The position numbers were made by a program, and so were the translations under genes. From Ruminococcus flavefaciens (GTDB lineage Bacteria > Bacillota > Clostridia > Oscillospirales > Ruminococcaceae): a stretch of DNA of 64,000 nt. The notes beneath the pieces were generated by a model. The model worked only from the letters and a program-made list of their open reading frames with translations. It made no database searches and was not told the DNA's origin. Every line of letters starts with the position of its first letter. Position 1 is the first letter of the stretch. The stretch is taken from the NCBI GenBank assembly GCA_023667045.1, contig JAMPAU010000007.1, forward strand, positions 16,619 through 80,618. Reading direction: 5' to 3'. Shown piece by piece: positions 7,259 through 63,884 of the stretch.

Positions 7259-7268
7259 AGGGATTTTT

Positions 7269-7776: not shown

Positions 7777-7827
7777 ATTAAAGCAGTCGGGTGATAAGCC
7801 CCTTGTAAAACCTAATTGTACTGCAAT

Positions 7828-7912: not shown

Positions 7913-7913
7913 T

Positions 7914-7946
7914 AAAAAGACTTCTCTTTCTGAGAGGTCTTTTTTA
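7914..7946 (+). terminator. Terminator of tRNA-Leu
   Basis: The stem GACTTCTC/GAGAGGTC, with a 5-base loop, is flanked by A and T runs directly after the tRNA. Confidence 0.85.
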
Positions 7947-7965
7947 TTTTCTATAGATAAAAAAA

Positions 7966-7993
7966 TCCCTGCCGGAATTTGTACCGACAGGGA
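7966..7993 (-). terminator. Terminator of the CAP-LRR-dockerin gene
   Basis: The stem TCCCTGCCGG/CCGACAGGGA is followed on the minus strand by a run of seven T. Confidence 0.8.
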
Positions 7994-8000
7994 AATTTAT

Positions 8001-9152
8001 TTATACATTATCTTTCAGAAATTCTTCAAATGAAAGTGTACCGCCTGTTGATACTTCCGCATAATAGCTTAAAATCAGCGAGGAATCAACGGCATTTACC
8101 TGTCCGTCAGCATTTACATCAGCAAATTTACTCTGTTCTTCATTAAGGGTTGAGGGGTTATTAACGGACAACTCTGCATATTCAGTAAGCACAATTGTAG
8201 CGTCAACTGCATCTATATACTCATCGCCGTTGATATTGCCGAGTGAATAAGACGGTTTTTCTAAAGTCTTGAAAGTCCTGTTATATTTTTCGGCATAAGC
8301 CTGTGCTGTGGAGTTTTCATATCCATAGATAACGGCGTTTGAGTCAATCGTAAACGCACTGTCGTCTATCTCGCATTCGGGATTCATGAAAGTTATTTCC
8401 TCAAGAGATGTACACTCATAGAATGCATAACTTGAAACTTTCTTTATATGCTCCGGAACTGTCACCTTTTTCAGATTCGACATCTTACAGAATGTCCATG
8501 TGCCTATGCTTTGTACGTCACTGCCGAAATAAATTTCTGTAATGTTATCGCATTCGGACACCCACGGACGACCGCCGGAAACAAAGTCGCACATATTTCC
8601 GAAACATTCTACTGTCAGCACACTGTTGGAAACATTCCACTTTAAAGCGTCTTTTGCAAAATTCTGCACACAGTAATAATAACCGTCAGCATAAGCAACC
8701 CCCACGCCTATATCTGTGAACCACTCCCTCAGAATATTTTCACGGTGTCCAGTGGAGTTCATCCAGCCATTCATAGCCTCCTGCGGAACATCATCATATC
8801 CAGACATCTTTAATATATTTTCGCCGTTGCCGGAAGCGTATATATTATTCTCGTCAAGAATAGTATTCCACAATGTGCCGTCGGGTCTATAATGCGAATA
8901 CTCTGTTATAATCTCCTCTGCTCTTTTTTGAGCCACAGCATTCAAGTAGGGGTTAAACGTAAGCGGTTCAAGACCCTCTTTAGCTCTTTCCTCGTTTACC
9001 ATTTCAAAGATACTCTCAGCATATCCGGCAAGCGTTTCATCTTCGGCGGAAGAAACTGCCGAGACGTTCATTACACTGCCCGACCTCTGCGAAATACCTG
9101 CTCCCGTCACAGCCATTAATACCGCTGTGATACCTGCTATTATTTTTTTCAT
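8001..9152 (-). CDS. Secreted CAP-domain (SCP/PR-1) protein with LRR_5 repeats and dockerin
   Basis: 383 residues. A signal peptide (about 1-35) is followed by a CAP domain at about 45-170, with NEERAKEGLEPL, SHYRPDG and MNSTGHRENIL. Two or three BspA-like LRR_5 repeats lie at about 195-295. A C-terminal dockerin at about 305-372 has two calcium-loop repeats: GNINGDEYIDAVDATIVL and ADVNADGQVNAVDSSLIL. The dockerin predicts attachment to a cellulosome cohesin outside the cell. Its helix motif (AVDxTxxLTxYAxxS) is closest to the CttA and ScaB dockerins of this window, although no X module precedes it. The role of the CAP domain is unknown. It has its own consensus promoter and terminator. Confidence 0.88.
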   Translation of the reverse strand: MKKIIAGITAVLMAVTGAGISQRSGSVMNVSAVSSAEDETLAGYAESIFEMVNEERAKEGLEPLTFNPYLNAVAQKRAEEIITEYSHYRPDGTLWNTILDENNIYASGNGENILKMSGYDDVPQEAMNGWMNSTGHRENILREWFTDIGVGVAYADGYYYCVQNFAKDALKWNVSNSVLTVECFGNMCDFVSGGRPWVSECDNITEIYFGSDVQSIGTWTFCKMSNLKKVTVPEHIKKVSSYAFYECTSLEEITFMNPECEIDDSAFTIDSNAVIYGYENSTAQAYAEKYNRTFKTLEKPSYSLGNINGDEYIDAVDATIVLTEYAELSVNNPSTLNEEQSKFADVNADGQVNAVDSSLILSYYAEVSTGGTLSFEEFLKDNV

Positions 9153-9285: not shown

Positions 9286-10632
9286 TTAACTAAGCAGATT
9301 GTTAAGTTCTTCTGAGGTTATCGGGAGGTCGTCGGCGGTGATTATTTCAAGGTCTACCATTTGTATGGCGAGAGCGTCTATAGGAGTGAGACCGTTTCCC
9401 CTGTCTACTACATCACCATTGAGAGCCTGTTCTTCAGTGAGTTTGTAGTTAGAGGGATTAGAGAGGCTCTGCATGATAAGTACAGCGTCAGCTATGCTTA
9501 CCTTGCCGTCGCAGTTAGTGTCGCCGAGTAATCCAGCGGTTGTATCTGTGGTTGATTCTTCGTCGAGTGCCACAAACTGATAATTATATTTTTCGGCATA
9601 TGTCTGTGCAGTAGAGCCGGTATAACCATATATTACAGTTTTTTCTTTATTACCGCCTAAAGATGTGCTAAACTCACATTCGGGATTTAATACGACTATT
9701 TTTTCAAGGCTTGAACATTTAAGAAAAGTGTTAGAACTTAAACTCATAACATTTTTTGGTATTGTTACTTCTTTAAGTGATTCACATTCAGAAAATGCAT
9801 TAAATGGCACTTCTCTTAATTTATTAGAAAGCTTAACAGTTTCAAGATTTGAACATCTTAAGAATGTATTGTTTCCTAATGTCTTAACACTATCCGGCAT
9901 ATTAAAGTTAACAAAAGCTTGACAGTACTGGAATGCTCCCTCTTCAATGGTAGTTAAAGTATTCGGAAGTGTTATATCGGGAAGCTTTTCGCAACGACTG
10001 AATGCATAAGGTTTTATCTCTGTTATGCCGTCTGAAATTGATACATTTTCAAGATTGCTACAATTTGCAAATAAATAATCTGGTATTGAAGTTAAAGATG
10101 ACGGAAATGATGCAGTTGTAAGTGAACTACAGCCACTAAAAGCTCCATATTCGACAGATTTAAGAGTTTCCGGAAATATCATAGGAGTTGTAAGGTCTGT
10201 ACAGTTTTCAAATGATTTTCTGCCTACTGTTTCAAGATTAGCAGGAATATTTATAGAAGTAAGTTTAGCACAGCCATTAAATGCTTCATTTTCTATAGAA
10301 GTCACACTATTAGGGAGCGTTACTTTTTTCAGATATTTACAATTTTTAAATGAATTTGCACTAACATTTGTAATGCCGTCTTCAATAACGATTTCTGTTA
10401 TAAAGTCTTTATCGTCTTTCCATGGTGCTCCAGACCAGCTATTAATCTCCATCATTTTGCCTGTACCGCTTATTGTAAGTATACCTGTTTCATCATCAAG
10501 CGACCATGTAGCCGGATTTTCTGTACTTTCTGCCATAGATACCACAGGAGCGACACTTTCCGGAATGACTGTCACACCAAACGCAAGGCACACTGCCATG
10601 ATTCCGGCTACTATTTTTCTTGATTTTTTCAT
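9286..10632 (-). CDS. Secreted BspA-like LRR protein with C-terminal dockerin
   Basis: 448 residues. A signal peptide (1-35) is followed by a short N-terminal module, W-x-LDD-x-G-x-LTISGTG, shared with the lipoprotein at 12825. About ten LRR_5 repeats of about 23 residues lie at about 75-335 (LPNSVTSIENEAFNGCAKL type). A dockerin at about 365-435 has GDTNCDGKVSIADAVLIMQ and GDVVDRGNGLTPIDALAI. This dockerin is very like that of ScaC, including the QSLSNPSNYKL linker, so both should read the same cohesin class. Likely a cellulosome-bound adhesion or binding protein with no catalytic domain. The signal peptide and 5' region are duplicated at 1-415. Confidence 0.9.
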   Translation of the reverse strand: MKKSRKIVAGIMAVCLAFGVTVIPESVAPVVSMAESTENPATWSLDDETGILTISGTGKMMEINSWSGAPWKDDKDFITEIVIEDGITNVSANSFKNCKYLKKVTLPNSVTSIENEAFNGCAKLTSINIPANLETVGRKSFENCTDLTTPMIFPETLKSVEYGAFSGCSSLTTASFPSSLTSIPDYLFANCSNLENVSISDGITEIKPYAFSRCEKLPDITLPNTLTTIEEGAFQYCQAFVNFNMPDSVKTLGNNTFLRCSNLETVKLSNKLREVPFNAFSECESLKEVTIPKNVMSLSSNTFLKCSSLEKIVVLNPECEFSTSLGGNKEKTVIYGYTGSTAQTYAEKYNYQFVALDEESTTDTTAGLLGDTNCDGKVSIADAVLIMQSLSNPSNYKLTEEQALNGDVVDRGNGLTPIDALAIQMVDLEIITADDLPITSEELNNLLS

Positions 10633-17946: not shown

Positions 17947-19659
17947 ATGAAAAAGAAATCATTCAAAAGCAGACTGACAGCACTTACAGCAGTTCTTTCA
18001 ATTTCTTGCTGTGCAGTGACAATGCCTGTAATTGCCGACTGGGAACAGATAGGGTGTATGGGCGACCTCAACAACGACTCAGAAGTAAATGTTGCCGACC
18101 TGCTCCTGCTCTCAAAGTATATGCTCGGCAGTATCTCTCTTACAACCGAAAACGCTTATCATATAGACGGAAGCTATTACTCAGTAAACGGCAGTGAGGC
18201 AGATAATTCAGTTGAATATCTCCAGACAGCCGACATAAACCAAGACGGCAGAATAGATATTTTTGACCTGATTATGATGCGTAAGTACGTTATAAACAAA
18301 TGGGCTGACCCTGTATACATATGGAAAGATGATACTGAAACTTCTACGTCATCTTCCTCAACTACCACAACAACTACTATAGCTACAGCGGTTTCCTCAG
18401 ATACAGAAACAACTACCTCGACAACTTCCGCACCTGCATTCATTGAAGCACCAGTAAAAAATCTTTACGGCTCTATGCCCTCTCAGAATAACGCCGAAAT
18501 GGTTATATTTTATGTGGATTTTCCGGACTGTCCATATAAATATGAACCGTCTGTATCAGAAATAGAAAAAATAGCATTTGGCACAGAAGATACTGAAAAC
18601 AAAAACTATCCCTTTGAGAGTATGTCGGCATTCTATAACCGTTCTTCAAAAGGCAGTATGAAACTTAACGGTAAGGTATTCCGCTATACCACCAAAGAAA
18701 ACAAATCCGCATACGAGGGCGACATATACCACGTAAACCTTATAAATGAGGTTTTCGAGACATTCAAGGACAGTGCAGACTTCACGGAATTTGATGGCAA
18801 CAAAGACAGCATTATTGATACAACGCTGATTTCTGTTCCGGAAGACGCAGGCGATGACAACTGGTGGCCAGCAGCCGGACAGTACGGCGGTAACACAGAC
18901 CTTAAAGTTGACGGTATGTCAGTAGGTCACGTTATAGTAGGAAATGCCCAGATTGAAAGCAAGACAGACTACAAAAACTTCACAAGCAGTTATCTGCACG
19001 AAATGGGTCACTGCATGGGACTGCCCGATTACTACCTTTACAACGGCGAAAAGGACTTTGAGGGTCTGCACGGTTCGGCAGGCTATGAGATGATGGACGA
19101 GACAAACGCTGACTTCTCTGCTGTCTCAAAGCTCATGCTTGGCTGGTTCAAAAAAGAACAGGTTACAGTATACGACCCCACTGTGAAAAATCAGACTTTC
19201 ACACTCTCAAACGCTCAGAAAGAAAACGGCAACTGTGTTATCATACCGTGCGGAAAACTCGAAGATAACTATTATTCGGAGTTTCTGATAGTCGAATACG
19301 CCACCCTTGACGTAAACAACAGCCGTCTTAAAAAAGACTACTGGTGGAAAACTACCGGCTCAGGCGTAAGGGTATTCCATGTTGAAGGCACTGTAAATGA
19401 TAATATAGGTTGGAAATACTGGAAATATGCAAGCGGTGACAATGAGGCTACCAACAATGACACCGGAAAGCGTTTTATCCGTATTATAGATGATACCGAC
19501 ACAGACAACCTCTACCGCACAGGCGACGTAATAGACGGAAGTATTTCCGGTTTCAAGTGGTACGCTGAGGACGGCACACAATCAGTTGATGTGGGGCTGA
19601 AAATAACTGTCGGCGATATGACTGACGATTCATGCGTAATTACCATTTCAGAAAAATAA
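17947..19659 (+). CDS. Secreted dockerin-bearing M6-like metallopeptidase
   Basis: 570 residues. A signal peptide (1-33) is followed directly by an N-terminal dockerin (about 37-117). It has GDLNNDSEVNVADLLLLSKY and ADINQDGRIDIFDLIMMRKY, separated by an unusually long insert. A Thr/Ser linker lies at about 130-160. The peptidase body at about 170-560 has the zinc signature HEMGHCMGLPD at about 351, as in immune-inhibitor-A (M6) peptidases. The dockerin predicts delivery to the cellulosome outside the cell, where it could trim cell-wall or plant proteins (inference). The ribosome site is AAAGGAG. A membrane polymerase-like gene follows 15 bases later. Confidence 0.9.
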   Translation: MKKKSFKSRLTALTAVLSISCCAVTMPVIADWEQIGCMGDLNNDSEVNVADLLLLSKYMLGSISLTTENAYHIDGSYYSVNGSEADNSVEYLQTADINQDGRIDIFDLIMMRKYVINKWADPVYIWKDDTETSTSSSSTTTTTTIATAVSSDTETTTSTTSAPAFIEAPVKNLYGSMPSQNNAEMVIFYVDFPDCPYKYEPSVSEIEKIAFGTEDTENKNYPFESMSAFYNRSSKGSMKLNGKVFRYTTKENKSAYEGDIYHVNLINEVFETFKDSADFTEFDGNKDSIIDTTLISVPEDAGDDNWWPAAGQYGGNTDLKVDGMSVGHVIVGNAQIESKTDYKNFTSSYLHEMGHCMGLPDYYLYNGEKDFEGLHGSAGYEMMDETNADFSAVSKLMLGWFKKEQVTVYDPTVKNQTFTLSNAQKENGNCVIIPCGKLEDNYYSEFLIVEYATLDVNNSRLKKDYWWKTTGSGVRVFHVEGTVNDNIGWKYWKYASGDNEATNNDTGKRFIRIIDDTDTDNLYRTGDVIDGSISGFKWYAEDGTQSVDVGLKITVGDMTDDSCVITISEK

Positions 19660-37071: not shown

Positions 37072-38169
37072 TTAGTCATTCTTCTTTCTGAGAACGAATG
37101 CAGTACCGATTGCAACTGCGAGACCAGCAGCAGCTACGCCTACGCCAGCAACACCAGTCTTTGGTGATTCCTTACCAGCAGCAGTTGTTGTCTTAGCTGT
37201 AGTTGTTTTAGCTGTAGTTGTCTTAGCTGTTGTTTCAGACTGTGTAGCAGAATCAGATGTTGATGCAGAAGCAGATGTTGATGCAGAAGCAGATGTTGTT
37301 GCAGATGATGTAGTAGCAGTAGGTGTTGTAGAAGTTGTAGATGTAGGAGTTGTAGATGTAGGAGTTGTAGATGTAGTAGTAGTTGTTGTTGTTGTAGGTG
37401 TTGTAGAAGTTGTAGTAGTTGTTGTGGTTGTAGGTGTTGTAGAAGTTGTAGTAGTTGTTGTAGTTGTTGTAGTTGTTGTAGTTGTTGTTGTAGTTGTTGT
37501 AGTTGTAGTAGTTGTTGTTGTGCCAGCTTCAATCTGAATGTAACCCTGTGTTATACCCTGAGTGAATGCATAAGCCTGCATGAGCTTACCTGTTTCATTG
37601 TTTGTCTTGTTAGTGAAAAGGTCCTTAGCATTGGCAGTGCTCTGGTAGTCAATCTGAATCGGGAAGAGTTCACCGCCCTCAACAGAATCGGGGAGCTTGA
37701 AGTTAATTGTATATGCAACACCAGTAAAACCAGCATCGCCGTTACCAGATGTTGTAAGGAATACGCCTGTATCGCCGTTGTCCTTAATCTGCTGAGCAAG
37801 ACGTTTAACAGCAGGACCAGCTTCAATATTGTAGTAGCCCCAATCATCAATGTCAAACTTTATATTCTTGCCGTTTTCACTTGGGTAGCAGTTTACATGG
37901 AGACCAGTTGATGAATAAACCTGGTCTACGTTACCGCCTATTGTAATTGTAACCGGAACAGTGCCGTCATTTGCAATAATTTCCTGTGCCTCTGCCAGTG
38001 AAAGAGTTACCTGTTCAACTGTAAGTGTAGGCTTGTACTCAGAGCCTGCAATTGTAGTAGCATCAAAACCATTATCGGGAGTAGCAAAAGCAGAAATTGA
38101 AGTAGCAGATACTGCAACAGCGGAAACTGCAAGTGCAGTAAAAGCTTTCTTTAAAGAATTAGTCTTCAT
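37072..38169 (-). CDS. scaE: ScaE-like anchoring scaffoldin: single cohesin with sortase signal
   Basis: 365 residues. Signal peptide 1-30. A single divergent cohesin lies at about 32-213 (LTVEQVTLSLAEAQEIIAN, VYSSTGLHVNCYPS, TSGNGDAGFTGVAYTI). A Thr-rich linker spans about 215-330, with repeats of (T)n-STP. A C-terminal sorting signal consists of SPKTG (about 336-340), a hydrophobic helix and RKKND. By homology with R. flavefaciens, sortase links it to the wall and its cohesin binds the X-dockerins of ScaB and CttA. SPKTG is a variant of LPxTG. It follows cttA by 83 bases with a strong intervening hairpin. Confidence 0.93.
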   Translation of the reverse strand: MKTNSLKKAFTALAVSAVAVSATSISAFATPDNGFDATTIAGSEYKPTLTVEQVTLSLAEAQEIIANDGTVPVTITIGGNVDQVYSSTGLHVNCYPSENGKNIKFDIDDWGYYNIEAGPAVKRLAQQIKDNGDTGVFLTTSGNGDAGFTGVAYTINFKLPDSVEGGELFPIQIDYQSTANAKDLFTNKTNNETGKLMQAYAFTQGITQGYIQIEAGTTTTTTTTTTTTTTTTTTTTTTTTTTSTTPTTTTTTTTSTTPTTTTTTTTSTTPTSTTPTSTTSTTPTATTSSATTSASASTSASASTSDSATQSETTAKTTTAKTTTAKTTTAAGKESPKTGVAGVGVAAAGLAVAIGTAFVLRKKND

Positions 38170-38213
38170 TTTGATTTATTTCCTTTCAGATTAAATTAAA
38201 ATTATTTATATTT

Positions 38214-38237
38214 ATCTGCCGCCACCCGACGGCAGAT
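38214..38237 (-). other. Intercistronic hairpin, cttA-scaE
   Basis: Perfect 8-base-pair stem ATCTGCCG/CGGCAGAT with an 8-base loop, no T run after it, about 45 bases before scaE. Not a terminator by sequence; it may be a processing or stability element. Confidence 0.6.
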
Positions 38238-38252
38238 TTCACACATTATAGA

Positions 38253-40751
38253 TTAACTGTTAAAAATTTCGTCCCAACCGTCTCTGTCACCAATTGTAAA
38301 CTCATCTTCTGTTGCAAGAAGAGAATAGTACATCTGGATAGCTGTTGCATCATTAGCATCAACCATTCTATCTGCCTTAGTTGCCTTCCAGTTGTCCTTT
38401 ACTTCTCCAACATCAGACTGGTTCGGGTCGCCAAGGAATGCAGCGAAGTCATCATAAATTGATGTAGGACCATCAATTAAGTCAGAATATCCAAGTTGAG
38501 CTGTATCTACAGTACCGCCGGTTGAAAGTACAGCATAGTAAGTAAGTACCTGTGTGCCGTCAACTGCGTCAACATAATAGTCAAGGTTTACGTCACCTAA
38601 GTAACCGATATAAACTTCTACTGAAGCATCACTGCCGTCAGCAGTCTTGAGTGCGTCGCCCTCTGTGAGAACTACCTTACCTGTTGAATCGCTGACTGTA
38701 GGACCTGCATAAGTAAGAACTGCATCATACTTGAAGTCTTCGTCGCCAACTGTAAACATTTCATTAGGAGTTGAAGCAAATCCAAAATCAATTGTCTTGT
38801 CTTCGTCTGCGAGGTCTTCGTCTACATAAGTAATGTGAAGAACGAGATTATCGCCGACCTGGTCTTTATGGAATTCTTCTTCATAGCTGTAGTAGAAACC
38901 ATAGCTTGCAGTTTCAACTGATACTGTTAAGCTTTCTACTTCGCCAGCAAGTACAAGACCAGAGCCTGAACCTGTTGTAGTTGTTTCTGTGCCTGTTTCA
39001 GAACCTGTAGCACTTGTTTCTGTTGTAACTGTTCCTGTGCCTGTCTCAGAACCTGTAGCACTTGTTTCTGTTGTAACTGTTCCTGTGCCTGTCTCAGAAC
39101 CTGTAGCGCTTGTTTCTGTTGTAACTGTTCCTGTGCCTGTCTCAGAACCTGTAGCGCTTGTTTCTGTTGTAACTGTTTCTGTGCCTGTCTCAGAACCTGT
39201 AGCACTTGTTTCTGTTGTAACTGTTTCTGTACCTGTCTCAGAACCTGTAGCACTTGTTTCTGTTGTAGTTGTTTCTGTGCCTGTCTCAGAACCTGTAGCA
39301 CTTGTTTCTGTTGTAGTTGTTTCTGTGCCTGTCTCTGTTTCGCTTGTTACTGTAGTAGTTGTAGTTGTTTCAGTTTCGCTGTCTGTTGAAACTGTAGTAG
39401 TTGTTGTAGTAGTGGAATCAGTTGTAGTAGTAGATGATGTTGTTGAAGTTGTTGTAACAGGGTCTCTGTAAATTCTTAAACCTACTGTAGCAAGAATATC
39501 GTCTGCATTGTAGATGTCGCCGACTTCAACAGTAGCAACCATATGCTTTACAGAATCTGCCACTTCGTCATCTGGGAAATCGCCAGTGAGTGTGTAAGTA
39601 CCCTGTTTTGCTGTTGCTGTAAGACCGTAGAGGTCATTATCAGCAAATGAAGCAATATCTGCTGTAGTAATATCTATATTGTAATTAACGGAAATCTTAT
39701 TGATTTCGTTCATTACAACATCGTAGAGGTCAGCCACATAAGAGTTATTCATAATATCTGTTACAGTTGCAGGGATATTAATTTCTCTGTTGAACTTATC
39801 TTCTACCTTGTCAATCTTGTCGCTGTACTTGCCGTTGTCAATGTAGTCGTTGATAGTCTCGATAAGGCTCTTCATATTAGGACTGCTTGCACTGCGTTCA
39901 ACAGTGTAAACCTTATCCTTATTATTGTTAGCCTTGTTAATCCATCCTTCATACTTTGAGAATTTGCTGTCGAAATCAGCCTTAGCCTTAGCTGTTACAT
40001 CAGCAGGAAGATTAGCACTGTCAATTGAAGCATAAGCTATAGCCTTGATTTCATTGAACTTAGCAAGAGCAAAGTCACCAGCATCGCCGGCTGCAAATAC
40101 TGTCTTGCCGTTAACAGCTGTGTTAGCAGTATACTTAGCCTTTACGTCCATTGTGTAGCCGTTTGCAAGGTCACTGCCCTCGATTACAACTTCATATGTA
40201 CCGGAGAAATCAACTGAGCTGAAATCTGCCTCTGCAATTTCCGGAGCGCCATACTTTTCAGCAAGTTCTTTCATTGAATCGTCAAGAGAAATTACCTTAC
40301 CAGCATCCATGAAAGCGGACAGGTCAGGATTTACAATTTTTCCGGTAACAGTAATATCGCCATTGTTGGAAATTGTGTACTGTACGCCGTCTTCACTGAG
40401 CATATCAATAACGAGCTGTGCTTTTCCGGAATACTTTCCAGAATGATTAAGGATAGCATTCGCTATAGTTTCCTTTGCAATTGTGTTTGCCTTGTTGTTG
40501 TTTTTGTTGCCTATTGCAACGAGTTCAGCATAGAAAGCAGAATACCATGTAGATTCTGTCTGACCGGGAGCAATATAAAGAAGATTATCTTTAAGAGTAT
40601 AAACTTCCTTTTCAGATGATTCTGTATTTTCTGCCGTTGACTGAACTGAATCATTTGTTACAGCGTAAGACGTATAAGTCAGACACTGAGAGAGAGCAAG
40701 CGGAACAGAAGCTACTGTTGCAAAAACTCTCTTAAATAATGAATTCTTCAT
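38253..40751 (-). CDS. cttA: CttA-like cellulose-binding, cell-anchored protein with X-dockerin
   Basis: 832 residues from ATG 40751 (AGAGG at about 9 bases); the longer frame overlaps the promoter. Signal peptide 1-29. The N-terminal region at about 45-425 is predicted to hold substrate-binding modules; I see two loosely similar halves but no standard CBM motif. A Thr/Ser/Glu linker at about 427-597 contains seven ATGSETGT units. The X module is at about 600-717. The C-terminal dockerin has GDVNLDYYVDAVDGTQVL and a divergent second loop. In R. flavefaciens CttA binds cellulose and docks on ScaE, fixing the cell to its substrate. Confidence 0.9.
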   Translation of the reverse strand: MKNSLFKRVFATVASVPLALSQCLTYTSYAVTNDSVQSTAENTESSEKEVYTLKDNLLYIAPGQTESTWYSAFYAELVAIGNKNNNKANTIAKETIANAILNHSGKYSGKAQLVIDMLSEDGVQYTISNNGDITVTGKIVNPDLSAFMDAGKVISLDDSMKELAEKYGAPEIAEADFSSVDFSGTYEVVIEGSDLANGYTMDVKAKYTANTAVNGKTVFAAGDAGDFALAKFNEIKAIAYASIDSANLPADVTAKAKADFDSKFSKYEGWINKANNNKDKVYTVERSASSPNMKSLIETINDYIDNGKYSDKIDKVEDKFNREINIPATVTDIMNNSYVADLYDVVMNEINKISVNYNIDITTADIASFADNDLYGLTATAKQGTYTLTGDFPDDEVADSVKHMVATVEVGDIYNADDILATVGLRIYRDPVTTTSTTSSTTTTDSTTTTTTTVSTDSETETTTTTTVTSETETGTETTTTETSATGSETGTETTTTETSATGSETGTETVTTETSATGSETGTETVTTETSATGSETGTGTVTTETSATGSETGTGTVTTETSATGSETGTGTVTTETSATGSETGTETTTTGSGSGLVLAGEVESLTVSVETASYGFYYSYEEEFHKDQVGDNLVLHITYVDEDLADEDKTIDFGFASTPNEMFTVGDEDFKYDAVLTYAGPTVSDSTGKVVLTEGDALKTADGSDASVEVYIGYLGDVNLDYYVDAVDGTQVLTYYAVLSTGGTVDTAQLGYSDLIDGPTSIYDDFAAFLGDPNQSDVGEVKDNWKATKADRMVDANDATAIQMYYSLLATEDEFTIGDRDGWDEIFNS
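38985..39335 (-). repeat. 48-bp tandem repeat in the cttA linker
   Basis: About seven near-identical 48-base units encode the 16-residue period ATGSETGT(E/G)T(V/T)TTETS. They differ by a few bases (GTG/GAG, GTA/GTT changes). All frames are open over much of it, which explains antisense frames. The copy number is likely to vary among strains. Confidence 0.85.
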
Positions 40752-40879
40752 TGTTTTATACCTCTCTAATATATTTTTTCCAGAACTGACAAATATTTGA
40801 TATAAGTCATTATATCCGGAGTTAAATTTCAGCGGGGTAAACATAAACCTATAACTAACCCCCAGAAATTCATAACTAC

Positions 40880-40908
40880 ATTTTATCACACAAAACGCAA
40901 TAAGTCAA
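40880..40908 (-). promoter_or_regulatory. Proximal cttA promoter
   Basis: On the minus strand TTGACT (40903-40908) and TAAAAT (40880-40885), spacer 17, with TG before the -10. The leader is about 120 bases. Confidence 0.8.
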
Positions 40909-41078
40909 GCGGTACTGTAGAATTTTTTTAAAAATTATTCACGATTAAAAGCTTTGTTTTTTGTACTTATTTCACAATTTCAACATCAAAAACCGCCTAA
41001 AATTACATTTTTAAGAATTTAATGTAAAATTTTATTTTTTTATAAATAATAATACAGCGAGAATCCTCTTGTAATATT

Positions 41079-41107
41079 ATCATATCACTTTAAATTCCAT
41101 TTGTCAA
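41079..41107 (-). promoter_or_regulatory. Distal cttA promoter
   Basis: On the minus strand TTGACA (41102-41107) and TATGAT (41079-41084), spacer 17. It starts right after the scaB terminator and gives a leader of about 320 bases. Confidence 0.82.
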
Positions 41108-41123
41108 GATGTAGTTTTTTCCG

Positions 41124-41156
41124 AAAAAAAAGCAGACCGGAGAGGTCTGCTTTTTT
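41124..41156 (-). terminator. Terminator of the scaC-scaA-scaB transcript
   Basis: Stem GCAGACC/GGTCTGC extended by A/T pairs, with eight T on the minus strand, 18 bases past the scaB stop. Confidence 0.9.
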
Positions 41157-41173
41157 AATTGTTTTAGTGGTGA

Positions 41174-44100
41174 TTATGCCTGTTTGCCATACTTATCAAG
41201 TGTAGCCTGTACATAGGATGCATCGCCGAATCTGAACGGTGATGAAATATCCCATGCTTCCTGAACAGTCATCTCGCCGAGAGGCTCAACTTCTGTTGAG
41301 GCATATGAATAGAATACCTGAATTGCAGTAGCGTCTGTAGCCATAATCTCTCTGCCAGCCTTCTTTAGCTTCCAGTTGTCAGGGTCCCACTCATTTACGT
41401 CAACGTCGCCAAGGAATGCAGCGAAATCGTCGTAAACTGATGTAGGTCCGTCAACTAACTCAGAATCTGAAAGTTTAACATCATTTGGTGTTGTACCATT
41501 TGTTGAAACTTCAGCATAGTAGGTCAGTGCCTGTGAGCCGTCAATTGCGTCAGCAGCATTGTCAAGGTTTATATCGCCCTTTACGCCGATATATACAGTA
41601 ATTACTACCTGTTCTTTATCGGGATTGAGGAGAGGACGAATATCGTCTTCACCGTCTGTACCGAAGTTGTAGTATACAGGAACTTCATACTTGAATGTAT
41701 CGTTATTGATGTCGTATACGCTTGCAGGAGTTGCACCATTGAATGTGATGTTTGCAGGGTCAAAGCTTACTTCTTCAGGTTCAGCACCTTCATAGTCAAC
41801 CTTGAACATCTTAGCAATTGTAATCTGGTCTTTGCTGAATCCGCCTTCCTTAGTACCGCCTTCACGTGTACCGTCGTCATGGCTGAAGTAGAAACCGATT
41901 TCAGTTGTAAGGTCTGCATAGTAGTGAGGATATGTGAGAGTTGTAGTAGTTGTTGTTTCAGTTGTTGTTGTAGTTGTTGTCTGTGTAGTAGACTGTGTCT
42001 GACTTGCGTTAGAAACGTTTGTAGACGCACTAGTTCTTGTATTTGAAGCATCAGTGTTGTCAATAGAACCAGTTGTAGTTGTAGTTACAGTAGTAACTGT
42101 AGTTGTTTCAGTAGTAGTTGTTTCAGTAGTTGTTGTTGTAGATTCTGTTGTTGAAGCAGATGTTGTAGCGGAAGATGTTGTTGAAGCGGAAGTTGTAGCA
42201 GAAGATGTTGTTGAAGCTGATGTTGTAGCGGAAGCACTTGTTGAAGCTGATGTTGTAGCAGAAGATGTTGTTGAAGCTGATGTTGTAGCGGAAGCTGTAG
42301 TAGTTGTTGTAGTTGTAGTAGTTGTTGTTGTAGAAGTTGTAGTAGTTGATGTAGTCTTAGCCTTAACGATGATAGCACCGTCAATTGTCATGATATTCTT
42401 TGTAATATCATTGCCGTTTGTGTCGCTTGCAAAGAGGTCAGTAATTGTTACAGGGTAAGTACCGTCTGCACAGTCTTCCGGAACAGTGTAAGTAAGTGTA
42501 ATTACAACGTCGCCGTCTGCAGCAGCAGTGCCAGCACCCTTTGAGTTAGCGAATGCATACTCGTTTGTCTTGTCATTTGCAACAAGTGTATTGCCGTAAG
42601 GTGTACCTGCGGACTTGTCGTAAATAATCGGGTCTGTACCATTGATAACAAACTGTGCACCGCCTACAGGAAGCTTAGAGTCGTTTGTATCCTTAACAAC
42701 CATGTTTACAGTAACTGTTTCGCCGGGTTCAGCTGTAACAGTATCAATCTGCCAGATGATAGCACCGGAAGCAGCTGTAACTGTAGTAGTTGTGGTTGTT
42801 GTTGTAGTAGTGGTTGTTGTTGTAGTTGTAGTTGTTGTAGTTGTTGTAGTTGTAGTAGGTGCAGAAGTTGTAGTAGTGGACTTAGCCTCTACGATGATAG
42901 CACCGTCAACAACGAGGATATTCTTTGTAATGTCAGTACCGTTAGTATCGCTTACAAAGAGGTCTGTAAGAGTTACAGGGTATCTGCCGGGTTCGCAGTC
43001 GTCCGGAATATCAAATGTAAGTGTAACTACATTTGACTTATCTGGAGCGATAACAGAACTGCCGATTTCATGAGCAAATGCTACTTCCTTTTCGTTAGCT
43101 ACAACGTCAGCACCATAGCCCTCTGAACCAGTTACACCCTTATATGTTACACCGGTAGCAGAATCAATGATGAACTGAGCACCGGAAACAGGGAGCTTAG
43201 CATCTTTCTGGTCGTTAACAACAACGTTAACCTTTACGTTTGTATCGCCAGGGTTAACAGTTACAGTATCAACTACCCACATGATGTTTCCATCGGGAGC
43301 AGTAACTGTAGTAGTTGTTGTAGTCGGAGTAGTTGTAGTAGTTGTGGTTGTAGTAGTAGTTGTTGTTGTTGTAGTTGTGGTTGTTGTAGTAGAAGCAGAA
43401 GTTGTAGTAGTAGTCTTTGCCTTAACAATGATAGCACCGTCAATTGTCATGATATTCTTTGTAATATCAAGACCGTTTGTGTCACTTGCAAAGAGGTCAG
43501 TAATTGTTACGGGATAAGTACCGTCTGCACAGTCTTCCGGAACAGTGTAAGTAAGTGTAATTACAACGTCGCCGTCTGCAGCAGCAGTGCCAGCACCCTT
43601 TGAGTTAGCGAATGCATACTCGTTTGTCTTGTCATTTGCAACAAGTGTATTGCCGTAAGGTGTACCTGCGGACTTGTCGTAAATAATCGGGTCTGTACCA
43701 TTGATAACAAACTGTGCACCGCCTACAGGAAGCTTAGAGTCGTTTGTATCCTTAACAACCATGTTTACAGTAACTGTTTCGCCGGGTTCAGCTGTAACAG
43801 TATCAATCTGCCAGATGATAGCACCAGAAGCAGCTGTAACTGTAGTAGTTGTGGTTGTTGTTGTAGTTGTGGTGGTGGTAGTTGTTGTTGTGGTGGTAGT
43901 TGTGGTAGAAGCAGAAGTTGTAGTAGTAGTCTTTGCCTTGATATTGATAGCACCGTCAACGAGCTTTACCTTTGAGGTAATGTCCTTGCCGTTTGTATCA
44001 GAAATGAAAGCATCTGACCACTTAACCGGATATTTGCCGTCTGCACAGTCATCCGGAACTGTGAATGTAAGAACAAGAACATTGTCTTTGTCCTTTGCTG

Positions 44101-45973
44101 CAACGCCTGAGCCAATGCCCTGAGCGAAAGCAAATTCATTAGTCTTAGCGTTTTCAACTACTGTTGCGTCGTAAGCTTCAGAACCTGTTGACTTTTCATA
44201 TACGATAGGTGAATCAGCCTTAATAACAAACTGAGCGCCAGCTACAGCAAGAGCAGGGTCTGAACTTCCGTCAACGTAAACTTCCATAGTAACTGTGTCA
44301 CCGGGTTCAGCGTCAACTTCTGGAATTACCCATGAAACTTCACCTTCAGCAGCTTCAACATCTTCAACGGTAATTGAACCGTCAAGAAGTTTAATGTTAT
44401 CTGTGATTTCATTACCGTTTGTATCAGAGATAAATGCCTCAGACCATGTTACAGGATATGTGCCGGGAGCTGTAGGAGCTGTATAAGTAAGTGTAAGAAC
44501 CTTAGCACCGTTATCAGCAGCAATTCCCTTGCCTATGCCCTGTCCGAATGCAAATTCATCTGTTTCCTTGTTGTTTACAACTGTAGAATCGTAAGCAGAT
44601 GAGCCGTCAACTGAAACAAATTCAGCTGTATCAGCAGTAATCTTGAACTGCGCACCAGCTACAGGAACAGCAGCGTTTGCAGTATCATTTACTATTACGT
44701 CCATAGTAACAGTTTCGCCGGGCTTAGCTGTTACTTCGGGAATATCCCATTCAATTACGCCTTCAACTGATTCATCAATGATGATAGCACCGTCAAGCTT
44801 TTCAATCTTGTCAGTAATGTCGAGACCATTTGTATCACTTACAAAGAGGTCGCTCCATGTAACAGGATATGTACCTGCCTTAGCGTCAGCCGGAACAGCG
44901 TACTCAACTGTGAGAATAACCGCACCGTCCTTAGCAACAGTACCCTTGCCTATGCTCTGTCCGAATGCATATTCATTTCTATCAGCATTGTAAACAAGTG
45001 AAGAATCATAAGCATTTGAACCGCTTGCAGTAGGCTTGCCGAACATACCGTCAGCAATTACCTTAAACTCTGCACCTGCTACTGCAAGGTCAGAATCACC
45101 GCTTACAACTACATCGAGAGTAGCCTTTCCGCCCTTCTGAGCGTGAACTGTCGGGATAACCCATGCAGCATTTCCGTCAGCCGGCTTGTAGGTAGTAGTT
45201 GTAGTTGTTGTTGCTGAACTTGAAGAAGCGGTTGTCTGAGAGGCAGTTGTAGTAGCCTTAGTTGTGCCGTCCTTAGTAGTTGCAGTGGTAGTAGTTGTTG
45301 TTGTAGCCTTGGTAGTAGTAGCAGAAGAAGCAGTTGTTGTGCTTGATGTGCTACCAATATCACCAATAGCAATGTAGCCGTCAATTACGTCAGAAGTGTA
45401 GAATGTTTCAGGCGATGATGTCTTCATAAATGCTGCTTTGCTTGCAGAAATTTTATAAAGACCGTCTGGTGTACCGTCTGGAACTGTGAAAGTAAGGTAC
45501 GCAAGGATATTATTACTATTATCAACAGGAATACCCTCACCCTTTACCTGTGTGATAGAAGAGAAGTTAGGAAGTTTTTTATTGGCGGTTATGCCGGCAT
45601 TAGCAAATGCTGGTGAAACAGTGTCAACTTCAAAACCAAAATCACCTTCGTAGTCAATTACCATTGAGAATGATATAGGAAGTATTGTATCATTCTTTGA
45701 AGTAACGTGAGCATCAACATAAACTACGCCGTTGTCCTCTGGGTCTACTCTCCAGTAACCGTCATCTGAATTAGGATTTGTGAAGTCAACAACAACGTCT
45801 GCATCTGATGCCATTTTATTTGCAGCTATGTCTTTTACTCCACCCATACTAACATTAGGCTGCACGGCAGGAACACTGCCGGCAGCACTAACTACGATAG
45901 ATGAGGTAAATGCACTTGACACGAACGTTGCCGCCATGACAAGAGACGTAACTGCGGAAAGCAGTTTCTTCAT
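41174..45973 (-). CDS. scaB: ScaB-like scaffoldin: seven cohesins and C-terminal X-dockerin
   Basis: 1599 residues. Signal peptide 1-30. Cohesins lie at about 58-203, 269-396, 404-534, 545-679, 716-849, 894-1027 and 1069-1203, joined mostly by Thr-rich linkers; cohesins 2 to 4 lie close together. A Thr/Ser/Ala linker at about 1204-1340 precedes the X module (about 1349-1462) and dockerin (GDINLDNAADAIDGSQAL). Cohesin 1 is nearly identical to the ScaA cohesin; cohesins 2-7 form another class, and 5 and 7 are almost the same sequence. By homology, cohesins bind ScaA or enzyme dockerins and the X-dockerin binds ScaE on the wall. Known strains differ in cohesin number. Confidence 0.95.
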   Translation of the reverse strand: MKKLLSAVTSLVMAATFVSSAFTSSIVVSAAGSVPAVQPNVSMGGVKDIAANKMASDADVVVDFTNPNSDDGYWRVDPEDNGVVYVDAHVTSKNDTILPISFSMVIDYEGDFGFEVDTVSPAFANAGITANKKLPNFSSITQVKGEGIPVDNSNNILAYLTFTVPDGTPDGLYKISASKAAFMKTSSPETFYTSDVIDGYIAIGDIGSTSSTTTASSATTTKATTTTTTTATTKDGTTKATTTASQTTASSSSATTTTTTTYKPADGNAAWVIPTVHAQKGGKATLDVVVSGDSDLAVAGAEFKVIADGMFGKPTASGSNAYDSSLVYNADRNEYAFGQSIGKGTVAKDGAVILTVEYAVPADAKAGTYPVTWSDLFVSDTNGLDITDKIEKLDGAIIIDESVEGVIEWDIPEVTAKPGETVTMDVIVNDTANAAVPVAGAQFKITADTAEFVSVDGSSAYDSTVVNNKETDEFAFGQGIGKGIAADNGAKVLTLTYTAPTAPGTYPVTWSEAFISDTNGNEITDNIKLLDGSITVEDVEAAEGEVSWVIPEVDAEPGDTVTMEVYVDGSSDPALAVAGAQFVIKADSPIVYEKSTGSEAYDATVVENAKTNEFAFAQGIGSGVAAKDKDNVLVLTFTVPDDCADGKYPVKWSDAFISDTNGKDITSKVKLVDGAINIKAKTTTTTSASTTTTTTTTTTTTTTTTTTTTTTVTAASGAIIWQIDTVTAEPGETVTVNMVVKDTNDSKLPVGGAQFVINGTDPIIYDKSAGTPYGNTLVANDKTNEYAFANSKGAGTAAADGDVVITLTYTVPEDCADGTYPVTITDLFASDTNGLDITKNIMTIDGAIIVKAKTTTTTSASTTTTTTTTTTTTTTTTTTTTTPTTTTTTVTAPDGNIMWVVDTVTVNPGDTNVKVNVVVNDQKDAKLPVSGAQFIIDSATGVTYKGVTGSEGYGADVVANEKEVAFAHEIGSSVIAPDKSNVVTLTFDIPDDCEPGRYPVTLTDLFVSDTNGTDITKNILVVDGAIIVEAKSTTTTSAPTTTTTTTTTTTTTTTTTTTTTTTTTVTAASGAIIWQIDTVTAEPGETVTVNMVVKDTNDSKLPVGGAQFVINGTDPIIYDKSAGTPYGNTLVANDKTNEYAFANSKGAGTAAADGDVVITLTYTVPEDCADGTYPVTITDLFASDTNGNDITKNIMTIDGAIIVKAKTTSTTTTSTTTTTTTTTTTTASATTSASTTSSATTSASTSASATTSASTTSSATTSASTTSSATTSASTTESTTTTTETTTTETTTVTTVTTTTTGSIDNTDASNTRTSASTNVSNASQTQSTTQTTTTTTTETTTTTTLTYPHYYADLTTEIGFYFSHDDGTREGGTKEGGFSKDQITIAKMFKVDYEGAEPEEVSFDPANITFNGATPASVYDINNDTFKYEVPVYYNFGTDGEDDIRPLLNPDKEQVVITVYIGVKGDINLDNAADAIDGSQALTYYAEVSTNGTTPNDVKLSDSELVDGPTSVYDDFAAFLGDVDVNEWDPDNWKLKKAGREIMATDATAIQVFYSYASTEVEPLGEMTVQEAWDISSPFRFGDASYVQATLDKYGKQA
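42361..42800 (-). repeat. Direct repeat copy 1 (cohesin 7 of scaB)
   Basis: Nearly identical to 43420-43859 with a constant offset of 1059 bases (353 codons). Exchange between the copies would remove two cohesins in frame. Confidence 0.85.
43420..43859 (-). repeat. Direct repeat copy 2 (cohesin 5 of scaB)
   Basis: Partner of 42361-42800. Only a handful of base changes are seen over about 440 bases, including part of the flanking Thr linker. Confidence 0.85.
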
Positions 45974-45990
45974 CTGTGCATTTCCTTTCC

Positions 45991-46002
45991 GGGCAATTGC
46001 CC
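45991..46002 (-). other. 12-base palindrome upstream of the scaB ribosome site
   Basis: GGGCAATTGCCC, able to form a short hairpin, 18 bases before the scaB start and next to AAAGGAAA. No terminator T run. Confidence 0.5.
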
Positions 46003-46025
46003 TTTTATATTAATTATAAGAGATA

Positions 46026-47714
46026 TTACTGATTAACAGGAAGTTCTACAAGATGAACAATGCTCTTGATGATAGCATCAGAGTCTTCAGCTGTAAGTTC
46101 CTTGCCATCCTTCGGGTTGTAGCAGTCAGCGTTAATCTTACCCTGGTCAGAGATAGCATATGACTTATTGTCATTGAGGTACTTGTTGAGAAGAACAACG
46201 TCGTTAATCTTTACAGAACCGTCGCAGTTTGTATCACCGTAAAGCTTTGTGACAGGCTTTCCTGTTGTTGAAGCTGTAGTAGCAGAAGATGTTGTCTTGT
46301 CACCTGTATTAGCTGTAGTAGCTGTTGTAGTTGTTGTTGTTGTTGAACCAGTTGTTGAGCCAGCAGTTGTTGTTGTAGATGTGCCAGGGTCAACATCACC
46401 GATAGCAATATAACCATCAATTACGCCAGAAGTGTAGAATGTTTCAGGTGATGATGTCTTCATAAATGCTGCTTTGCTTGCAGAAATCTTGTAAAGACCG
46501 TCAGGTGTGCCGTCCGGAACTGTGAAAGTAAGGTATGCAAGGATATTATTGTCCTTATCAACAGGAATACCCTCACCCTTTACCTGTGTGATAGAAGAGA
46601 AGTTAGGAAGCTTCTTATTGGCAGTTATACCGGAATTAGCAAATGCTGGTGAAACAGAGTCAACTTCAAAACCAAAATCACCTTCATAGTCAATTACCAT
46701 TGAGAATGATATAGGAAGTATTGTATCGTCCTTTGAAGTAACGTGAGCATCAACATAAACTACGCTGCTATCATCTTCGTCTACTCTCCAGTAGCCGTCC
46801 TCTGAATTAGGATTTGTGAAGTCAACTATTACGTCGCCGTCAACAGAAGGCTTAGCGCTTGAAGTTGTTGTTGTAGTTGTTGAGCCTGCACCGCTTGTAG
46901 ATGCTGTTGTAGCTGTTGTAGCAGTAGATGCTGTTGTGCTTGAGCTGCCAGCATCGCCAACCTTAATAGTAAGTGAATTGAGGTCGAGGTTCTTGTTTGT
47001 GTATGTTTCGTAAGCTTCATTTGTTTCAAGAACGCATGATGCATTACCTGAGAATGTAAGATAGTTACAGAAATCAATTACATAATCGCCCTCAGCAATG
47101 CCCTTAGGAAGTGTTACATCAAAAACAACACACGGGAAATCACTTGACTTTGCACCGTACCAGCTCTGTAATTTTTCACCACCGCTTAACCATACACAAC
47201 CAACGAAAGCATTGTCTGTGCCAGCATCTGTCTGTGATTCATCACAAGCTACATTGTACATACCGTGTGGCTTATAGCCTGACCTCTTATTGTATGAACC
47301 AGCAAAAGCAACAACCTTAGTTGTTGTGATTTCACTGCCGTCAGCTATTTTGAAAGAATGTGCTTCAGCGAAGTAATCTTCAGCACCAGGAGTATAAGCT
47401 GTGAACTTAACCTTACCAACATCTGCACTGTCAGACTTAACTGTAGCGTCAACACCAAAGCTTACTATATCAGGTGTTTCAGAATCAATATAAATAGCGA
47501 GCGGAACTGTAACGTCGCCAGCAGCGATAGCGTCAGCAGAAACTGTAACAGTTGCACCGTCAGCCTTTACGCCCTCCTGTAAAGTAGCGTCCTTGTATGT
47601 AAGGATAGAAAAGCCCTTCTTTGCGTCAGCAGCACCTGCTACAACAGGAGCAACTGCACCAACCATTGTTGCAGCCATTACGAGCGATGTAGCTGCAGAA
47701 ACTAATTTTCTCAT
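46026..47714 (-). CDS. scaA: ScaA-like scaffoldin: N-terminal unknown module, one cohesin, dockerin
   Basis: 562 residues. Signal peptide 1-28. Residues about 33-248 form a module (GFSILTYKDATLQEG ... ASCVLETNEAYETYTNK) whose end resembles a cohesin edge but whose core I cannot assign. After a Thr/Ser linker comes one clear cohesin (about 295-440), almost identical to ScaB cohesin 1. A linker and dockerin follow (about 490-562, GDTNCDGSVKINDVVLLNKY; the second loop NPKDGKELTAEDSD is irregular). In R. flavefaciens ScaA carries enzymes and docks on ScaB; strains 17 and FD-1 have three and two cohesins, from memory. Confidence 0.92.
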   Translation of the reverse strand: MRKLVSAATSLVMAATMVGAVAPVVAGAADAKKGFSILTYKDATLQEGVKADGATVTVSADAIAAGDVTVPLAIYIDSETPDIVSFGVDATVKSDSADVGKVKFTAYTPGAEDYFAEAHSFKIADGSEITTTKVVAFAGSYNKRSGYKPHGMYNVACDESQTDAGTDNAFVGCVWLSGGEKLQSWYGAKSSDFPCVVFDVTLPKGIAEGDYVIDFCNYLTFSGNASCVLETNEAYETYTNKNLDLNSLTIKVGDAGSSSTTASTATTATTASTSGAGSTTTTTTSSAKPSVDGDVIVDFTNPNSEDGYWRVDEDDSSVVYVDAHVTSKDDTILPISFSMVIDYEGDFGFEVDSVSPAFANSGITANKKLPNFSSITQVKGEGIPVDKDNNILAYLTFTVPDGTPDGLYKISASKAAFMKTSSPETFYTSGVIDGYIAIGDVDPGTSTTTTAGSTTGSTTTTTTTATTANTGDKTTSSATTASTTGKPVTKLYGDTNCDGSVKINDVVLLNKYLNDNKSYAISDQGKINADCYNPKDGKELTAEDSDAIIKSIVHLVELPVNQ

Positions 47715-47733
47715 TGCAATAATTCCTTTCTTA

Positions 47734-47748
47734 AGGTCTTGCAGACCT
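47734..47748 (-). other. Intercistronic hairpin, scaC-scaA
   Basis: Perfect stem AGGTCT/AGACCT with a three-base loop, about 20 bases before the scaA start, adjacent to its AAAGGAA site. No T run. Confidence 0.55.
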
Positions 47749-47833
47749 ATTTAATACTTAAAAATTTTTTTGGGGGTTATATTCCTTTGATGGGGACAAA
47801 TCAGATAATCTTTTACTGGAACAATCCTGTAAA

Positions 47834-48664
47834 TCAACTGTCAAGAGCCGACGGCATACCTAAATCAAACTTCTGTATTTCAAGAGCGTCTAACGGTGTA
47901 ATTCCGTCATTGTTGATTACATCGCCGTTAATTTGTCCCTGTGCTGAAATCTTATAATTGTTAGGATTTGAGAGTGCCTGCATTATAAGTACTGCGTCAG
48001 CAAGGGATACTTTGCCGTCTTCATTAACATCGCCCTTAAGTCCGGTATTACCAGTAGTGCCTTCACCGCCACTGACTGTAACTGCACCGTCATCTGTCTT
48101 GACATCATATCTTATTACTTCTTTATTCTTGACATATCCGACACTTATAACTTCATTGGGAACATTAGAGCCAGTGAAAGTATCTCTTGATGCGGGAACT
48201 ATTTCAAGCGGAATTGTACCCTTTGCATCAGCAGAAAGTGTACCTGTAACAGTACAGAATACGCCGTCGCTGTTCATCCAGTATGAAGAATCATCTAAAG
48301 ATGTTGACCAGATAAGAGATGTAAGACCCTTGTCATTATTGATACTGCTGTCAAAAATAGATAACAGAGAAGATGACGGGTCATCTTCTACAGCGGCTGT
48401 ATTTGCAAGTTCACCCGCCTTTACAGAGTCGATTGTTATCAGGCTGCTGTCATACTTTATTGCGAAGTCACAGCTTTGAATACCTGAAGATGGTACGTTT
48501 GAAAGTGATACGTCCACTGAAAATGTTTCGCCTGCCTTAGCTTCTGTCTTGCTGACAGATATCTGCACTGTTTCGCCGGCAGCGAAAACGGGAGCAATCG
48601 AGCAGACTGAAAGCGAGAGCATCGCAGCCGATACTGCCCCGATGACTATCTTTTTTGCCTTCAT
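47834..48664 (-). CDS. scaC: ScaC-like adaptor scaffoldin: one cohesin and a dockerin
   Basis: 276 residues. Signal peptide 1-29. Cohesin at about 31-200 (VQISVSKTEAKAGETFSVDV, SGIQSCDFAIKYDSSLITI, LTSLIWSTSLDDSSYWM), a more classical type than those of ScaA/ScaB. Dockerin at about 207-276 with GDVNEDGKVSLADAVLIMQ and GDVINNDGITPLDALEI. In R. flavefaciens ScaC plugs into ScaA and changes the range of dockerins that can be carried. Its dockerin closely matches that of the LRR protein at 9286. First gene of the cluster, with GGAGG before ATG 48664. Confidence 0.94.
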   Translation of the reverse strand: MKAKKIVIGAVSAAMLSLSVCSIAPVFAAGETVQISVSKTEAKAGETFSVDVSLSNVPSSGIQSCDFAIKYDSSLITIDSVKAGELANTAAVEDDPSSSLLSIFDSSINNDKGLTSLIWSTSLDDSSYWMNSDGVFCTVTGTLSADAKGTIPLEIVPASRDTFTGSNVPNEVISVGYVKNKEVIRYDVKTDDGAVTVSGGEGTTGNTGLKGDVNEDGKVSLADAVLIMQALSNPNNYKISAQGQINGDVINNDGITPLDALEIQKFDLGMPSALDS

Positions 48665-63518: not shown

Positions 63519-63594
63519 TGGCTCCCCCTGCCCGGCTCGAACGGGCGACAACTCGGTTAACAGCCGAGTGCTCTACCGACTGAGCTAAGGAGGA
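63519..63594 (-). tRNA. tRNA-Asn(GTT)
   Basis: 76 bases with encoded CCA. Acceptor TCCTCCT/AGGGGGA, discriminator G, anticodon loop CTGTTAA giving GTT, T loop TTCGAGC. Last gene of the stable-RNA operon. Confidence 0.96.
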
Positions 63595-63600
63595 ATATTG

Positions 63601-63717
<117 letters not shown>

Positions 63718-63728
63718 TATTTTTTAAG

Positions 63729-63800
63729 TGACCCGTACCAGAATCGAACTGGTGTTACCGGCGTGAGAGGCCGGTGTCTTAACCGCTTGACCAACGGGCC
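63729..63800 (-). tRNA. tRNA-Glu(CTC)
   Basis: 72 bases without encoded CCA (the next bases are CTT). Acceptor GGCCCGT/ACGGGTC, anticodon stem CCGGC/GCCGG, loop CTCTCAC giving CTC. Confidence 0.93.
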
Positions 63801-63808
63801 ATACTTAT

Positions 63809-63884
63809 TGGTGCACCATCGGGGACTCGAACCCAGGACCCACTGATTAAGAGTCAGTTGCTCTACCGACTGAGCTAATGGTGC
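63809..63884 (-). tRNA. tRNA-Lys(CTT)
   Basis: 76 bases with encoded CCA. Acceptor GCACCAT/ATGGTGC, anticodon stem ACTGA/TCAGT, loop CTCTTAA giving CTT. First gene after the promoter. Confidence 0.96.

Follow-up and report, generated by a model that had tools for sequence, protein, structure and literature searches.

The window analysed here, a stretch of 64,000 nucleotides from Ruminococcus flavefaciens whose end is also the end of its contig, carries a cluster of cellulosome scaffoldin genes in which ScaA has one clear cohesin and ScaB has seven. An earlier note made from the sequence took this for a strain-specific architecture, possibly intermediate between known types, with one ScaA-type cohesin kept at the start of ScaB. 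The locus raises the question of whether this is so, of how the first cohesin of ScaB came to resemble that of ScaA and of what the arrangement would mean for the docking of enzymes.

The sca cluster and its two classes of cohesin

The cluster lies on the minus strand at 37072-48664 and, in the open reading frame list for the whole window, shows the gene order scaC-scaA-scaB-cttA-scaE (Table 1). The coordinates together with Pfam and PDB matches confirm the earlier identification of an R. flavefaciens-type sca locus with this order, and the dockerins, X-dockerins and sorting signal noted at that time were found again through matches to 5n5p_B and 4wkz/4iu2 and as an SPKTG motif. ScaC was recognised by Pfam as containing a cohesin (9e-17) and a dockerin (2.9e-6), the latter being a member of the group-1 set of this genome. 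In a PDB sequence search the ScaE cohesin matched 2zf9 (1.3e-23) and the X-dockerins of both ScaB and CttA matched 4wkz/4iu2.

Table 1. Features of the sca cluster (positions within the window).
Feature	Coordinates	Strand	Description or basis
scaC	47834..48664	-	adaptor scaffoldin: one type-I-like cohesin and group-1 dockerin
scaA	46026..47714	-	562 aa: N-terminal domain, one class-1 cohesin, group-5 type dockerin
ScaA N-terminal domain	46950..47624	-	aligned in relatives
ScaA cohesin, class 1 (enzyme/group-1 dockerin type)	46395..46835	-	class-1 profile, tree
ScaA dockerin (putative ScaB-binding type)	46029..46253	-	5n5p_B match, 6.3e-23
scaB	41174..45973	-	1599 aa: seven cohesins and X-dockerin
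ScaB cohesin 1, class 1	45359..45799	-	90% identity to ScaA cohesin
ScaB cohesin 2, class 2	44771..45175	-	profiles, IQ-TREE
ScaB cohesin 3, class 2	44357..44764	-	profiles, IQ-TREE
ScaB cohesin 4, class 2	43934..44344	-	5n5p_A 7.8e-38; IQ-TREE
ScaB cohesin 5, class 2	43415..43831	-	near-duplicate of cohesin 7
ScaB cohesin 6, class 2	42881..43300	-	sub-type, one set with FD-1 ScaB cohesins 8 and 9
ScaB cohesin 7, class 2	42356..42772	-	IQ-TREE; identity to cohesin 5
ScaB X module and dockerin (putative ScaE-binding type)	41177..41935	-	4wkz_A 4.4e-28
cttA open frame	38253..40889	-	X-dockerin matches 4wkz_A 1.6e-20
scaE	37072..38169	-	anchoring scaffoldin: cohesin and SPKTG sorting signal

The ScaE sorting signal (37075-37167) has S-P-K-T-G at the C-terminus, and in the 64 distinct ScaE-like frames listed, the window's included, the residue before the proline is S, A, N, D or P and in none of them Leu. 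These signals without leucine, SPKTG in the window, differ from the LPXTG motif named for ScaE in PMC5301203. The window genome has seven sortase-family matches, six of them above the cut-off. A signal-peptide-like stretch suggests that cttA may start at the ATG at 40751. The linker of CttA is built at 38972-39335 from a 48-bp unit present in 7.6 copies with 96% matches. The gap between scaB and cttA holds at 41079-41156 a symmetric terminator-like hairpin and a promoter-like site, features for which about 8 and 26 chance hits are expected regionally, and these suggest that the two genes may form separate transcripts. Elsewhere in the window lie a dockerin protein with CAP and BspA-type LRR regions (8001-9152), a BspA-type LRR protein with a group-1 dockerin (9286-10632), a 570-aa protein with a dockerin at its N-terminus (17947-19659) and, at the contig end, a 5S rRNA with tRNA-Asn, tRNA-Glu and tRNA-Lys (63519-63884).

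On ScaB, Pfam reports six cohesins and the X module (listed as CttA_N), and on ScaA a sub-threshold dockerin. The six are ScaB cohesins 2-7, so that Pfam misses ScaB cohesin 1 as well as the cohesins of ScaA and ScaE. The ScaA cohesin matched 5m2s_A in the PDB sequence search (9.9e-6), and profiles built in this analysis retrieved seven cohesins from ScaB and one from ScaA, the same numbers that the earlier note had given. When applied as a control to strain FD-1 (locus L136) the same profiles found two cohesins in ScaA and four class-1 plus five class-2 cohesins in ScaB, which is the published count (PMC5301203, PMC4081043, as far as available). Within ScaB a long linker separates cohesin 1 from the tightly packed cohesins 2-4, threonine-rich linkers surround cohesins 5-7, and the X-dockerin follows. 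Cohesins 5 and 7 share 99% amino acid and 97% nucleotide identity; with DNA this similar the assembly may have collapsed further copies, and the cohesin count of the window is assembly-dependent. Cohesin 6 groups with ScaB cohesin 7 of L109 and ScaB cohesin 8 of L070 (100/95), and more widely with cohesins 8 and 9 of FD-1 ScaB; in the window, L109 and L070 this type sits between two near-identical copies of another.

The N-terminal domain of ScaA shows 30-62% identity to the window copy in an alignment of 31 sequences (30 relatives), and a search of the window copy for a Pfam family found none. It was considered as a second full cohesin and rejected, the match to class-1 cohesins being weak and confined to the last 54 columns (hhalign probability 92); since the end of the domain is weakly cohesin-like, one "clear" ScaA cohesin is a fitting wording. 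A search of the window genome for a third class-1 cohesin gave, outside the cluster, a 787-aa frame as its best candidate, which at 26% identity to the nearest cohesin of either class was not counted; two class-1 cohesins were found in all.

The division into two classes is directly observed. The ScaA cohesins scored, 57 in number, fall in a set of 127 (support 0.93) in a FastTree built from 424 cohesins, and in an IQ-TREE of 102 cohesins from 11 genomes the two classes split at 100/99, with the window ScaA cohesin as sister of ScaB cohesin 1 (100/99) and ScaB cohesins 2-7 in the other class, although the run itself warns of few columns and long branches. This agrees with the classes proposed earlier, and the tree that would have spoken against them, with ScaB cohesin 1 among the other ScaB cohesins, was constructed as a single clade of the seven and rejected (p-AU 0.0008). 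The class-1 profile matches 5m2o_A (3.2e-51). In the parts of the structural papers available, 5m2o is cohesin 3 of FD-1 ScaB solved with a group-1 dockerin (PMC5429695), 5m2s is an FD-1 ScaA cohesin with a group-1 dockerin (PMC5934362, PMC5429695) and 5n5p is cohesin 5 of FD-1 ScaB with the ScaA dockerin (PMC5934362). The partner assignments made below are drawn by analogy from this FD-1 work, and the match of the window's module classes to complexes of known binding supports them.

Distribution of mixed ScaB proteins in the genus

The set scored with the profiles comprised the window, nine stretches and 76 loci, after removal of two duplicates, two ScaE hits and hits below 40 bits or under about 100 residues. 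Forty genomes had both a scored class-1 cohesin in ScaA and at least one scored cohesin in ScaB, and other loci were omitted. In two of these, L151 and L157, the scored cohesins of ScaB start only at residue 307 and 165, respectively, and a class-1 cohesin may hide below the cut. Class-1 cohesins were present in the ScaB of 28 of the 40 genomes, FD-1 among them, and absent from 12, which include ND2009, SAb67, MA2007, YL228, YAD2003 and Y1. Ten of these 12 show two or three ScaA cohesins; in one of the other two (L143) ScaA ends at a contig end. A mixed ScaB is thus a common form in the genus and not an intermediate, and it is already published for FD-1 (4+5). The description of the arrangement as strain-specific in the earlier note is likewise not supported. 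In the window's clade, defined as strong matches to the window ScaA cohesin, ScaA has a single cohesin in all 12 genomes with both proteins scored. The ScaB of nine of them carries one class-1 cohesin and that of the other three carries two, with ScaB cut by a contig end in five genomes. No scored genome other than the window's showed the exact count of one in ScaA and 1+6 in ScaB. The tail of its ScaB holds near-identical copies, like those of L112 and L115, and such copies indicate a way in which cohesin counts can change.

Two further observations were made in these loci. The ScaB of L072 (L072:4914-8222) is broken by an in-frame stop between cohesins one and two. The record of L110 is titled Alistipes senegalensis and carries a sca cluster; the matching genome (G083) is placed in the window's genus and the record is probably mislabelled.

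Homogenisation of class-1 cohesins and genome-specific residues of group-1 dockerins

In the mixed ScaB proteins scored the class-1 cohesins come first. This constant order is what would be expected if a ScaA-type cohesin had stood at the start of ScaB since the ancestor, the FD-1-like state with four and the strain-17-like state with none having arisen by loss or gain, and the five of 32 ScaA cohesins across the genus (three species pairs) that are nearest to the ScaA cohesin of another species point the same way. For the other 27 a cohesin on the ScaB of the same genome is closer than any class-1 cohesin elsewhere, so that paralogues within a genome are closer than positional orthologues between genomes. 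A single clade of ScaA cohesins from seven species of the window's clade, a grouping chosen once a first tree was at hand, was rejected by 1081 log units (p-AU 5.5e-44). The ScaA cohesin of the window and cohesin 1 of its ScaB are not simply inherited in place; they group by genome and not by gene, and the claim that the latter was "kept" does not hold as plain inheritance. Retention is possible for the position of ScaB cohesin 1 but not for its sequence, and as an account of the whole pattern it is very improbable.

The identities observed bear this out at finer scale. The window's two class-1 cohesins are 90% identical in both protein and DNA (dS 0.28), with the match ending near the domain edges (scaA 880-1400 against scaB 175-698). 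Compared with the copies at the same position in ten relatives they show 32-48% identity, and the first two class-2 cohesins of the same relatives show 66-76% mean identity to those of the window. Against L112 the values are 48% for the ScaA cohesin and 46% for ScaB cohesin 1, and 74, 76 and 85% for class-2 cohesins 2, 3 and 4 (dS 1.22, 0.44 and 0.57). Over the 55 pairs formed by 11 genomes of the clade mean identity is 39% for the ScaA cohesin, 57% for the ScaA N-terminal domain, 74% for the first two class-2 cohesins and 82% for the ScaA dockerin, and the ScaA cohesin is below the class-2 cohesins and below the ScaA dockerin in 55/55 pairs and below the N-terminal domain in 54/55. The X-dockerins of ScaB and CttA, which are presumed to share one partner, do not show this kind of homogenisation within a genome, that of ScaB being 66% identical to its counterpart in G122 vs 42% to the window's CttA X-dockerin.

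A pattern of this kind could also result from repeated fresh duplication from ScaA to ScaB, or back, in each lineage. Young or homogenised copies do occur among class-2 cohesins of the ScaB tail, namely cohesins 5 and 7 here and identical copies in L112 and L115, and in the IQ-TREE the clade's cohesins 2 and 4 cluster according to their position but tail cohesins 5 and 7 according to genome, which indicates that homogenisation is not confined to class 1. Repeated duplication is rather unlikely, however, given the constant place and number of the class-1 cohesins (one in nine of 12 clade genomes, with one of those nine cut after that cohesin, and two in three) and a scaA/scaB match that stops near the edges of the domain. 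Gene conversion between standing copies is proposed as the mechanism, although the two window copies, when tested for a patchy distribution of conversion tracts, gave no significant result (p 0.28 and 0.31), and selection may have coordinated the changes.

The FD-1 structures give thirteen positions at which the cohesin touches a group-1 dockerin, and these were located on the class-1 cohesins, the FD-1 cohesins from which these columns come being 21-27% identical to those of the window. At these positions the window's two class-1 copies agree in 13/13, and the window and L112 ScaA cohesins in 4/13. Across 28 genomes identity within a genome reaches 0.875 at contacts, compared with 0.739 for the other positions (p 0.0005), a difference that is not significant in the window's clade alone (p 0.19). 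For a lower identity between genomes at contacts the p value is 0.17 for all genomes and 0.035 for the clade, and the gap of within minus between is larger at contacts in both (p 0.0001 for the 28 genomes, p 0.0066 for the clade), all by column permutations that ignore the kinship of genomes.

Group-1 dockerins were collected from ten genomes, of which seven with at least nine gave 113 rows (110 distinct), two ScaA dockerins having been dropped and one atypical row of the window genome kept; the collection is partial, with about twenty distinct dockerins for the window genome from 28 matches reported. For 92 of the 110 the nearest neighbour lies in the same genome, and none of 300 shuffles of genome labels reached the observed total. 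Differentiation is stronger at contact positions than elsewhere (p 0.012), although it is highest at position 49, which is not listed as a contact. In FD-1 numbering, position 39 is L in 17/21 dockerins of the window genome, I in 21/21 of G092 and V in 12/14 of G111; position 40 is A in 19/21, S in 21/21 and S in 13/14; and position 87 is L in 19/21, A in 20/21 and I in 11/14. Replacement of residue 39 or 43 of an FD-1 dockerin by alanine is reported to cut affinity about 100-fold (PMC5429695, in the part available), and in the collected set position 43 hardly varies.

It could be argued that class-1 cohesins are weakly constrained and that the dockerin signatures reflect shared ancestry without coordination. 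The identity of class-1 cohesins correlates at 0.71 with that of the ScaC dockerin, hardly better than the 0.68 with that of the ScaC cohesin, so that the two track it about equally. The average covariation of published contact pairs exceeds that of random pairs (p 0.0006, with no correction for kinship), with single pairs ranking from 26 to 8178 of 8555; cohesin 121 and dockerin 40 covary across 34 genomes (Fisher p 0.002), but when kinship is taken into account with few independent pairs this is not significant (median p 0.25). What makes weak constraint unlikely is that identity within genomes is raised and not lowered at the contact columns, and that residues specific to a genome recur at contacts 39, 40, 50, 55 and 87 in the dockerins of many different genes. 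A rumen scaC survey, as far as available, describes a conserved cohesin and a variable dockerin (PMC3197198). In the window's clade, with 13 loci that include no genome twice, divergence of the ScaC dockerin exceeds that of the ScaC cohesin in 73/78 pairs, a pattern absent over 68 loci of the genus (1199/2278 pairs), which hold some genomes twice.

Proposed assembly and comparison with known cellulosomes

The cluster probably encodes a known type of cellulosome whose ScaA carries a single cohesin and whose enzyme-docking code evolves in concert and is private to the species, its binding partners being predicted. The product would be a surface-anchored cellulosome of the R. flavefaciens type in which sortase would fix ScaE to the wall and the ScaE cohesin would take the X-dockerins of ScaB and CttA. 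The ScaA dockerin is predicted to dock on ScaB cohesins 2-7, giving one ScaA per cohesin, and the group-1 dockerins of enzymes and of ScaC to dock on the ScaA cohesin and on ScaB cohesin 1, while ScaC would recruit enzymes of group-3/6 type. With its one enzyme site ScaA would act as a one-for-one adaptor and not as a multiplier. By count, each ScaB would offer 1 + 6x1 = 7 group-1 enzyme sites, one direct and six via ScaA, and the same count for FD-1 would be 4 + 5x2 = 14. The class-1 cohesins are homogenised within a genome, most of all at the contact surface, and diverge fast between species, and the group-1 dockerins have contact residues specific to each genome.

A wider reading is offered tentatively, being possible but on balance doubtful: each species of the genus may hold a private code in which class-1 sockets and about twenty group-1 plugs move together over a common class-2 layer. 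If this were true, co-resident species could not load each other's enzymes. The main reading gives a reason at the level of sequence why rumen-type cellulosomes differ between strains and species, in that the layer facing the enzymes is replaced as a set and the scaffold-to-scaffold layer is held. It makes it possible to test whether neighbouring species are prevented from sharing enzymes, and how about twenty plugs keep up when the socket changes, and it provides many candidate orthogonal cohesin-dockerin pairs for designer scaffolds.

Species-specific recognition between cohesins and dockerins is a known idea, and earlier publications already describe this kind of cluster, ScaB proteins of mixed class and cohesin numbers that vary between strains; concerted evolution of scaffoldin cohesins with matching dockerins did not come up among the open-licence papers listed (the best 15 of 333 and 20 of 87). 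Among the systems closest to the window's are those of L109, L110 and L112-L115 (metagenome-assembled), L070 and L074, which share a single-cohesin ScaA, a class-1 cohesin first in ScaB, a packed class-2 block and a linker-rich tail but differ in counts of class-1 plus class-2 cohesins (1+7 to 1+10, with L109 at 2+6 and L070 and L074 cut, vs 1+6 in the window). The cluster of FD-1 is alike in gene order, in a mixed ScaB with class 1 first, in the type of ScaA dockerin, in the X-dockerins and in the ScaE anchor, and unlike in its ScaA with two cohesins and ScaB with 4+5, against one and 1+6 here, and in class-1 cohesins of 21-27% identity. Strains 17 and 007c share the gene order, and strain 17 also the number of seven ScaB cohesins, but the ScaB described for them in PMC4081043 has the class-2 sub-type only, in contrast to the class-1 cohesin 1 of the window. 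The cellulosomes of Ruminiclostridium likewise have repeated scaffoldin cohesins that take enzyme dockerins; in PMC10701907 those cohesins are described as similar from one species to another but dissimilar inside a species, which is the reverse of what class 1 shows in the present genomes.
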